64,000 nt of DNA from Chitinophaga sp. SYP-B3965 (GTDB lineage Bacteria; Bacteroidota; Bacteroidia; Chitinophagales; Chitinophagaceae). Shown in pieces: positions 21,771 through 58,668 of the stretch. Location: positions 2,728,001-2,792,000 of the forward strand of contig NZ_WJFD01000001.1 in assembly GCF_009647655.1 (NCBI RefSeq), in the 5' to 3' direction. The position numbers and the translations under genes are program-made. The notes under the pieces were generated by a model. It did not search any database and was not told the DNA's origin. It saw nothing but the letters and a program-made list of their open reading frames with translations. How positions within the stretch are numbered: position 1 is the stretch's first letter; every line of letters starts with the position of its first letter.

Positions 21771-22184
21771 TTAACAATACTCGTCAAATGCAGCCAATAA
21801 ATTGGTTGCGATCAATTGTGCTGAACGTCCTTCAATCATGTGACGTTCTATGAAATGCACCAGTTGTCCGTCTTTAAACAATGCTATAGCAGGTGAAGAG
21901 GGAGGATAAGGCAACAGGTGAGAACGGATCTGCTTAACAGCATCACCATCAAAACCGGCAAAGCTGGTAGTCAGCCTATCTGGTTTCTTTTCACTGGTAG
22001 CCACAGCCATCAAAACACCAGGGCGGGCAGTACCCGCTGAGCAACCACATACAGAGTTGATCATCACCAGGGTGGTGCCTTCCTTAGATATGGTTTCATC
22101 CACCTTTGCAGGTGTCAGCAATTCTTCAAAACCATTATCTGTTAATTCTGCCTTCATCGGCATCACGAGTTCCGCAGGGTACAT
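21771..22184 (-). CDS. Bacilliredoxin (BrxA/BrxB family)
   Basis: A 137-residue thioredoxin-like protein beginning MYPAELVMPMKAELT, the typical family start, so the ATG at 22184 is chosen over longer options. The active site is the CGC motif (C46-G47-C48 in SVCGCSAG), which removes bacillithiol from mixed disulfides in Firmicutes. The family is also widespread in Bacteroidota. The gene is divergent from hsp20, and the shared region carries two identical 18-bp sites (22241-22289). A TAACTTTG box lies at 22207-22200. Confidence 0.95.
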   Translation of the reverse strand: MYPAELVMPMKAELTDNGFEELLTPAKVDETISKEGTTLVMINSVCGCSAGTARPGVLMAVATSEKKPDRLTTSFAGFDGDAVKQIRSHLLPYPPSSPAIALFKDGQLVHFIERHMIEGRSAQLIATNLLAAFDEYC

Positions 22185-22199
22185 AATATTCCTTTTTTG

Positions 22200-22207
22200 C
22201 AAAGTTA
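22200..22207 (-). promoter_or_regulatory. -7 box for the bacilliredoxin gene
   Basis: The minus strand reads TAACTTTG, matching TAnnTTTG, 15 bp before the ATG, with a Shine-Dalgarno-like AAAAAAGG between. The -33 position reads ATTT rather than TTTG. Confidence 0.55.
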
Positions 22208-22240: not shown

Positions 22241-22289
22241 AAAACGACATTATGTCTTGCAACAATTACTAAAAACGACATTATGTCTT
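22241..22289. promoter_or_regulatory. Two identical 18-bp palindromic operators between bacilliredoxin and hsp20
   Basis: AAAACGACATTATGTCTT occurs exactly twice, at 22241-22258 and 22272-22289. Each copy contains the inverted repeat GACAT-T-ATGTC. The copies are offset by 31 bp, close to three helical turns, so two dimers would bind the same DNA face. The site lies 34 bp upstream of the bacilliredoxin -7 box and 118 bp before hsp20, so a regulator could control both divergent genes. Confidence 0.75.
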
Positions 22290-22406
22290 ATTCAAACAGC
22301 ACTTGCCTAACAAAATAGCAGCTTTCTGGCATTGGTATTCCGTTTGATCTACTCCCTGCGTGACCGATAAACTTAAAATGGTTTCACTTAAAAAATTATA
22401 AAGACT

Positions 22407-22847
22407 ATGACACTCGTAAAATTCAATCAACAACCGGTTAAGACCCTGAGCGGTATTATGGACGATATTTTCAATGGCAAGTTCATTAATAAGGACTTCG
22501 CTACTTCGGATTTTTTCGGTGCACACGCACCCGTGAACATCCGAGAAACAAAAGATGCTTATGTGTTGGATGTTGTAGCGCCTGGTTTCGAGAAAGGTGA
22601 TTTTAAGATCAACCTGGATGGCCAGACCCTGACGATCAGTTCTGAAAAGAAAACAGAACAGAAAGTGGAGAATGAAAAACAGATCCGCAGGGAATTCAGC
22701 TTCCGCTCCTTCTCCAGGTCATTTACCCTGGATGAAAATGTGGATGCAGAGAAGATCAATGCTAAATACGACAACGGCGTCCTGAAACTGACCCTGCCTA
22801 AAAAAGAGGCAAAACAGGAAACCGCAAAAGAAATTATAGTTGCATAG
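22407..22847 (+). CDS. Hsp20/alpha-crystallin small heat-shock protein
   Basis: A 146-residue ATP-independent chaperone that holds unfolding proteins. The alpha-crystallin domain (about 40-135) contains APVNIRETKDAYVLDVVAPGF, then the FSRSFTLDENVD and NGVLKLTLPKKE signature. The N-terminal arm is short. It is divergent from bacilliredoxin across two identical operator-like sites and is followed by a terminator at 22887. The pairing of a thiol-repair enzyme with a chaperone suggests stress control. Confidence 0.95.
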   Translation: MTLVKFNQQPVKTLSGIMDDIFNGKFINKDFATSDFFGAHAPVNIRETKDAYVLDVVAPGFEKGDFKINLDGQTLTISSEKKTEQKVENEKQIRREFSFRSFSRSFTLDENVDAEKINAKYDNGVLKLTLPKKEAKQETAKEIIVA

Positions 22848-58107: not shown

Positions 58108-58259
58108 ACGTACGCTTAGGAAAATGGCGGCAAAGCTACTGTTTTACAGGGACTTTTTAAAATATAGTTCCGGGGAGCCGGAAGCCGCATTCCGGGAAAC
58201 GGGCTGCGGCACTGCCATCCACCTTCTGACTGACAGGCAAAAATGAAAAAATGTCATAT

Positions 58260-58290
58260 CTTGACAGTCCCCCGGGAATATGTATCTTTG
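58260..58290 (+). promoter_or_regulatory. Consensus promoter of groES-groEL
   Basis: TTG (58261-58263) and TATCTTTG (58283-58290) are separated by exactly 19 bp, matching the Bacteroidota consensus. The leader is about 90 bases. No CIRCE-type inverted repeat was found between here and groES, so HrcA control is not supported. Confidence 0.75.
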
Positions 58291-58386
58291 CATCCTGAAA
58301 ATTTGACCCGAATACGTGGTTGGCATAATCTTCGTGCGGGTGGTTCCACTAACTTTTCAACTCATCTCTTTAAAAATAGAATAACA

Positions 58387-58668
58387 ATGGCTAAAAAATT
58401 AACTATTAAACCTCTGGCAGACAGGGTGATCGTAAAACCCGCAGCAGCAGAAGAAAAAACCTCTGGTGGCATCATCATCCCGGATACCGCTAAAGAAAAA
58501 CCTCAGCGTGGAACTGTAGTTGCAGCTGGTCCTGGTAAAAAAGATGAGCCAGTTACTGTGAAAGTTGGCGATACTGTACTGTACGGTAAATATTCCGGCC
58601 AGGAAATTCCATTTGAAGGAGAAGAATACCTGATCATGCGTGAATCTGATATCCTGGCTATTATCTAA
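58387..58668 (+). CDS. groES: Co-chaperonin GroES
   Basis: A 93-residue co-chaperonin that caps GroEL. The opening [15 protein letters not shown] and the mobile loop [18 protein letters not shown] are typical. The ATG at 58387 is preferred to longer starts. It lies 58 bp before groEL, the standard operon order, under a full consensus promoter. Confidence 0.98.

Follow-up and report, generated by a model that had tools for sequence, protein, structure and literature searches.

We analyzed a 64,000-nucleotide stretch of the genome of Chitinophaga sp. SYP-B3965 (contig NZ_WJFD01000001.1, positions 2,728,001 to 2,792,000; hereafter, the window), centering on a twin palindrome in the region shared by two divergent genes. 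One of them, brx (21771..22184, minus strand), is of the bacilliredoxin type (Disulph_isomer, PF06491, E=2.9e-59), and the other, hsp20 (22407..22847, plus strand), encodes a small heat-shock protein (PF00011, E=6.5e-24), as an initial annotation of this DNA had claimed. Between them, AAAACGACATTATGTCTT occurs at 22241-22258 and again at 22272-22289 on the plus strand, both copies being exact and 31 bp apart from start to start, in agreement with the identity and offset described there. The view that such a repeat is improbable by chance also held, two matches being reached in 0 of 100 dinucleotide shuffles (mean, 0.08), and allowing up to 3 mismatches revealed no third copy of AAAACGACATTATGTCTT in the window. 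Each copy contains the palindromic core GACATTATGTC, located at 22246..22256 (+) in dyad 1 and at 22277..22287 (+) in dyad 2, which we predict to be the distal and the proximal enhancer site, respectively, of a bacterial enhancer-binding protein (bEBP). The whole genome (7.14 Mb, both strands) holds three copies of GACATTATGTC, two of which are the pair in the window; the third (contig C14, locus L003) lies inside a 386-aa open frame and was treated as chance.

Downstream of the pair, the element TTGGTATTCCGTTTGA (22332..22347, plus strand) faces hsp20 and reads as a σ54-type -24/-12 promoter (GG-N10-GA). It is the sole match to TTGGYAYNNNNNTTGM in the window, and since 0.49 matches are expected by chance, this single match is not significant by itself; its weight comes from conservation. 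In the other direction, TAACTTTG (22200..22207, minus strand) is a σA-type -7 box (TAnnTTTG) of brx.

To assess conservation, we fetched the region upstream of the best hsp20 in each of 79 genomes of the genus and searched for dyad pairs, leaving the offset free from 20 to 44 bp and scoring on the anchors of GnCA-N3-TGnC. We devised both the promoter pattern and the scoring rules with the first genus regions already in view, so any letter that the pattern specifies is invariant by design; likewise, since the pair was chosen by anchor score, the fixed offset, rather than the anchors, is the independent result. The best-scoring pair stood at the 31-bp offset in 77 of the 79 genomes. The two exceptions, L134 (39 bp) and L136 (23 bp), each had one weak dyad, and a weaker pair at 31 bp was also present in both, by computation in L134 and by eye in L136. 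Each dyad retained at least five of the six anchors in 79/79 genomes, and all six were present in both dyads in 17/79; in dyad 1, the G was found in 78/79 and both C's in 79/79, while the A was weak (28/79). The exact 11-mer GACATWATGTC was found upstream of the best hsp20 in 12/79 genomes, and the exact 18-mer pair in just two upstream regions, those of this genome and of its close relative G173. Thus, the exact word is not general and a degenerate word is shared instead: tested for loss in close relatives, the exact 18-mer pair was mostly gone, but its degenerate form at a 31-bp offset persisted.

A match to TGGYAY-N5-TTGN lay before hsp20 in 79/79 genomes, and letters left free by the pattern were conserved as well, with T following TGG and TTTG each present in 79/79 (giving TGGTAY-N5-TTTG). 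The distance from the start of dyad 2 to TGG was 56 bp in 69 genomes, 55 bp in 9 and 45 bp, one turn less, in 1, the two dyads ending ~75 and ~44 bp before TTGG. At the final promoter base, A occurred in 57 genomes, C in 20 and T in 2, so that GG-N10-G is always present with C in the minority. By its sequence, TGG-N10-G[A/C] has the shape of σ54 -24/-12 elements, whose usual form is GG-N10-GC in a TGGCAC/TTGC-like context, and rpoN (σ54, PF04552) was found in this genome and in 14 of the 15 others examined.

We also scanned all genomes, one per species, for exact pairs with a gap of 6-36 bp. Exact pairs occurred in 81 stretches, and hsp20 lay alongside in 15 of them by tblastn; 14 of these 15 carried labels of Bacteroidota lineages, and one was an unclassified marine bacterium (TMED217). 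The dyad offset was 21 bp in one, 31 bp in one, 32 bp in eight, 40 bp in two, 41 bp in one and 42 bp in two, and the best GG-N10 element after dyad 2 followed at 11-12 bp in nine, 23 bp in three and 33 bp in three; this element was poor in L083, and L014 and L035 had no G at -13. At L027, L043 and L045, pair loci that also carry a Bacteroidota label, no hsp20 match was obtained at E values up to 1e-4. Pairs outside Bacteroidota were sampled by way of 10 proteins from 8 loci. At a Marinobacter locus (L016, 2879-2907), GACATAATGTC forms a pair with an 18-bp offset, and the 29-bp span is common to 16 Marinobacter-labeled loci. On two planctomycete contigs, one of them from Scalindua (L037, 5246-5296; L057, 3175-3225), a GACATWATGTC pair lies near a gene for a receiver-type bEBP, a placement that may reflect an independent use of the word.

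The 15 distant loci also bear on which of the two genes the pair serves. The initial annotation had proposed that it binds a regulator linking thiol repair to chaperone expression. That the pair consists of regulator sites is borne out by its conservation and helical phasing, but the link to thiol repair is not: tblastn (E up to 1e-4) turned up no brx at any of the 15 distant hsp20 loci, which assigns the pair to hsp20, and the pair is phased to the promoter facing that gene. Moreover, brx, which was located beside hsp20 in 78/79 genus genomes, has a TAnnTTTG box of its own within 110 bp upstream in all 78. Thiol repair was therefore rejected as the main role, and brx is probably not a target of the dyad pair.

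The cleanest test came from grpE, examined in 36 genomes of the class that were drawn without regard to the motif and did not include this one. A strict rule (six anchors, five of six positions of a TTGGCA-N6-TTG-type promoter and a gap of 10-15 bp) was satisfied in 31/36 genomes on the forward strand, in 0/36 on the other strand and in none over 50 rounds of shuffling; when five anchors sufficed, 35/36 genomes qualified on the forward strand and 0 on the other, with shuffles averaging 0.26 (at most 2). With the gap left free from 5 to 59 bp and five of six anchors required, 25 genomes had the dyad 12 bp and 9 had it 13 bp before the promoter; one more had it at 58 bp, tied with one at 13 bp, and one had none. 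Seven genomes were scanned for dyad-N10-17-TTGGCA; four of them gave 4 matches in total, and by coordinates each match adjoins grpE. In one other family of the phylum (L348-L351, outside the class and counted apart from the 30 loci given below), grpE is preceded by a σ54-like TGGCAT-N5-TTTGC, and the only dyads seen, 23 or 34 bp ahead of that element, are imperfect and lack one anchor.

Upstream of groES, a promoter-like element was present in all 17 genomes compared, and a six-anchor dyad lay within 110 bp of it in 14, at gaps of 12, 21, 22, 32, 33 (three genomes), 42, 43 (two genomes), 44, 53, 90 and 94 bp; in this genome, G155 and G234, the groES dyads were imperfect only. The window also contains this genome's own groES, at about 58387-58665 (family match at C1:2786405, or window position 58405). 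Before it stands the σ54-like element TTGGCATAATCTTCGT (58320..58335, plus strand; GG-N10-GT), with the imperfect dyad GAAAATTTGAC (58297..58307, plus strand; five of six anchors) 12 bp ahead. TGTCA/TGACA half sites accompany TTGGCATAATCTTCGT across 58245-58335.

At hsp20 and grpE, the dyad-promoter spacings fall near 12, 22-23, 33 and 44 bp, in steps of one helical turn; groES is looser. Upstream dyads, often two or more and in helical phase with the promoter, are characteristic of bEBP enhancers, and distances close to whole turns are well suited to an activator whose position has to bring it opposite the polymerase. Together, these observations make it very likely that the dyad pair provides the binding sites of a σ54 enhancer-binding activator of chaperone genes. 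The fuller account, in which the pair is an upstream enhancer of a σ54-dependent hsp20 promoter and its most likely activator is the bEBP described below, we consider likely.

This genome encodes nine strong bEBPs (PF00158). The candidate among them is encoded outside the window, at C1:251444-252679, in an apparent operon miaB-bEBP-lptE, in which the first gene is one that we take to be miaB from its sequence. The protein of 412 aa comprises a PF00158 AAA+ domain (residues 13-179), a PF25601 lid and a PF02954 Fis-type helix-turn-helix (residues 368-408), with GSFTGA present as a GAFTGA-type loop. Neither a receiver nor a GAF domain was matched in it (GAF at E up to 0.001), PF00158 starting at residue 13. 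All 37 same-class genomes contain a near full-length match, interrupted in one case by an internal stop. Of the 16 genomes carrying hsp20 pairs (this one and the 15 distant ones), 14 have such a match, and for 11 of these groES is found on the same strand at a distance of 2-4 kb. In Prevotella micans, the candidate type is the only strong PF00158 protein (E=7.1e-65; next, 1.6e-9), and in G348, a complete 2.0-Mb genome of a family member, it is the only match. The helix-turn-helix sequence LGISeRTLYRklK is fully or nearly conserved in 13 aligned orthologues. Between the lid and the helix-turn-helix, residues 260-368 carry a conserved eR.iLYK.ffdmk (L189, 2942-4180, minus strand) with no Pfam match, a stretch that is a possible signal-input segment. 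We looked for GnCA-N3-TGnC within 400 bp upstream of the nine strong bEBPs (30 bp for one, and with the region upstream of miaB outside the search) and found none that would indicate autoregulation. On balance, the genomic distribution favors this receiver-less bEBP as the activator, with reasonable though not high confidence.

The dyads, the σ54-type promoter, their phasing and conservation, rpoN and the bEBP gene are all read from sequence; from them we infer binding, activation and the identity of the bEBP, which would fit together as follows. An NtrC-family bEBP with a Fis-type helix-turn-helix would bind each GnCA-N3-TGnC dyad as a dimer, and two dimers three helical turns apart would nucleate an AAA+ oligomer on the DNA face that contacts σ54-RNA polymerase at TTGGTATTCCGTTTGA. 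ATP hydrolysis would then open the hsp20 promoter, presumably in response to heat or misfolded protein. With the dyad in equal helical phase before grpE, and less regularly before groES, hsp20 would be one node of a chaperone regulon.

Several observations weigh against this account, beginning with the promoter itself. The -13/-12 positions of the hsp20 promoter read GA in 57/79 genus genomes, the usual GC being present in 20/79. Among nine paralogous hsp20 genes of the genus, six have a σ54-like element with no full dyad before it, so the dyad need not accompany σ54 control of hsp20. (At the paralogous genes of L368-L373, the σ54-like element reads TGGCAY-N5-TTG and is followed by a GGTTGGCCAACC palindrome in L368-L371 and L373.) Enhancers of bEBPs typically lie ~80-150 bp from the start site, and at grpE the dyads, 12-13 bp ahead of the -24 box, stand nearer than that. 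At groES, 12 of the 14 six-anchor dyads fit the whole-turn series, but those at 90 and 94 bp do not. At grpE of G348, the dyad is accompanied by a poor promoter element, and this locus is the sole miss of the relaxed rule; a reversed control of the dyad-N10-17-TTGGCA scan also gave 4 matches (in G225 and G234; none in the three genus genomes), making that scan weak alone. Outside the class, 30 grpE loci from other classes of the phylum (L282-L311) yielded no strict and 1 loose match, even though 4 of those genomes (G253, G307, G321 and G365) contain a near full-length match to the candidate bEBP. The dyad word of the Marinobacter locus lies between TetR-type and HlyD-type genes; found beside unrelated regulators at L016, L037 and L057, the bare word is not diagnostic. 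As for the activator, with nine strong bEBPs in this genome the assignment rests on other genomes, and in one of these, the 2.9-Mb draft G232, the hsp20 pair is accompanied by rpoN, groES and grpE, yet no strong bEBP was found; either the assembly has a gap here or the case counts against the assignment. The other pair-bearing genome that lacks the candidate, G237 (1.1 Mb, probably incomplete), also gave no rpoN, groES or grpE match.

Other explanations were weighed against the same data. A different member of the nine bEBPs, for example one of the response-regulator type, could read the σ54 enhancer; besides that number and the receiver-type bEBP gene near the word at the two planctomycete loci, this would accord with Flavobacterium psychrophilum, which has three bEBPs and for which distinct activators per cluster were suggested (PMC9723704). 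We nevertheless consider it unlikely, because Prevotella micans, where these searches found the miaB-lptE type only, keeps the hsp20 pair, and G348, likewise with that type only, keeps the grpE dyad, albeit with its poor promoter element. Rather than an activator, the dyads might bind a repressor, for instance a TetR-like one, that blocks the σ54 or another promoter until stress, and both the TetR-type gene beside the Marinobacter word and the closeness of the grpE sites to the -24 box speak for it. A σ54 promoter requires an activator, however, and at hsp20 the distances, ranging up to 44 bp, differ by nearly whole helical turns, a pattern that fits an activator better than a steric block; repression is therefore quite improbable.

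Still less credit is due to the joint control that the initial annotation had envisaged, in which a dedicated redox or thiol regulator would govern brx and hsp20 from one operator. The pair does lie between the divergent genes, and their adjacency is nearly constant in the genus, but the pair persists at distant hsp20 loci where no brx was found, the phasing is to the promoter facing hsp20 only, and related dyads occur at grpE and groES; we judge it very improbable. Finally, the restriction of the exact 18-mer pair to this genome and G173 among the 79 upstream regions might suggest a functionless chance repeat or a recent local duplication. This is contradicted by conservation, with the offset and promoter distance kept in 77-79 of the 79 genomes and at least five of six anchors in each dyad, and its probability is close to nil. 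An upstream enhancer of σ54-dependent transcription, bound by an activator of the bEBP type, is the reading that we retain.

How much of this account is already established can be judged from related systems. The E. coli small heat-shock gene ibpB is partly under σ54, its main control being σ32, and we know of no link between that σ54 promoter and the dyad described here. An inverted repeat likewise precedes chaperone genes in the CIRCE/HrcA system; its sequence differs, and CIRCE (TTAGCACTC-N9-GAGTGCTAA) had 0 matches in the window with 3 mismatches allowed. The dyad of NorR has the similar shape GTCA-N3-TGAC. NorR uses three sites at norVW and an NO-sensing GAF domain (PMC2941729), whereas the candidate bEBP has no N-terminal sensor domain that we could find; without the N-terminal GAF domain, it falls outside the NorR type. 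In F. psychrophilum, start-site mapping placed σ54-type (SM4) promoters at groESL, grpE-dnaJ, dnaK, lon, htpG and clpB, three PF00158 proteins were counted, the activators being left open, and a σ54-regulator-lptE operon was listed with an SM5 promoter instead (PMC9723704). The available text of that study resembles our results in having σ54-type promoters at chaperone genes but gives no enhancer word or activator assignment, and "hsp20" does not appear in its main text. A comparative study of σ54 regulons reported GroEL, the small heat-shock protein IbpA, GroES, GrpE, DnaJ and DnaK as enriched for σ54 in Bacteroidota and cited σ54 dependence of grpE in two species; in connecting σ54 with chaperone genes it resembles our results, and the available text names no enhancer or bEBP for these genes (PMC12316311). 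In the literature searched, as far as its text was available, no enhancer word or activator for the σ54 chaperone promoters of Bacteroidota was found.

Control of chaperones by σ54, small heat-shock proteins included, is therefore already known or proposed, and what is added here is a candidate activator, together with the enhancer word and the way it is phased. While bEBPs bound to dyads are known, sites 12-13 bp from the -24 box and a chaperone activator with no recognizable sensor domain would be distinctive. More speculatively, the miaB-lptE bEBP, often near groES, might be a class-wide master activator of the chaperone response, working through helically phased dyads that come within 12 bp of the -24 box; having no recognizable sensor, it may be kept in check by free chaperones and released once these are diverted to misfolded proteins, a proposal that we put forward tentatively and hold to be doubtful as a whole. 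If the enhancer account is true, it would name an enhancer and a single testable activator for chaperone genes controlled by σ54 across a large bacterial class, and the near-promoter, whole-turn spacing would offer a test of how close to the promoter a bEBP can act.
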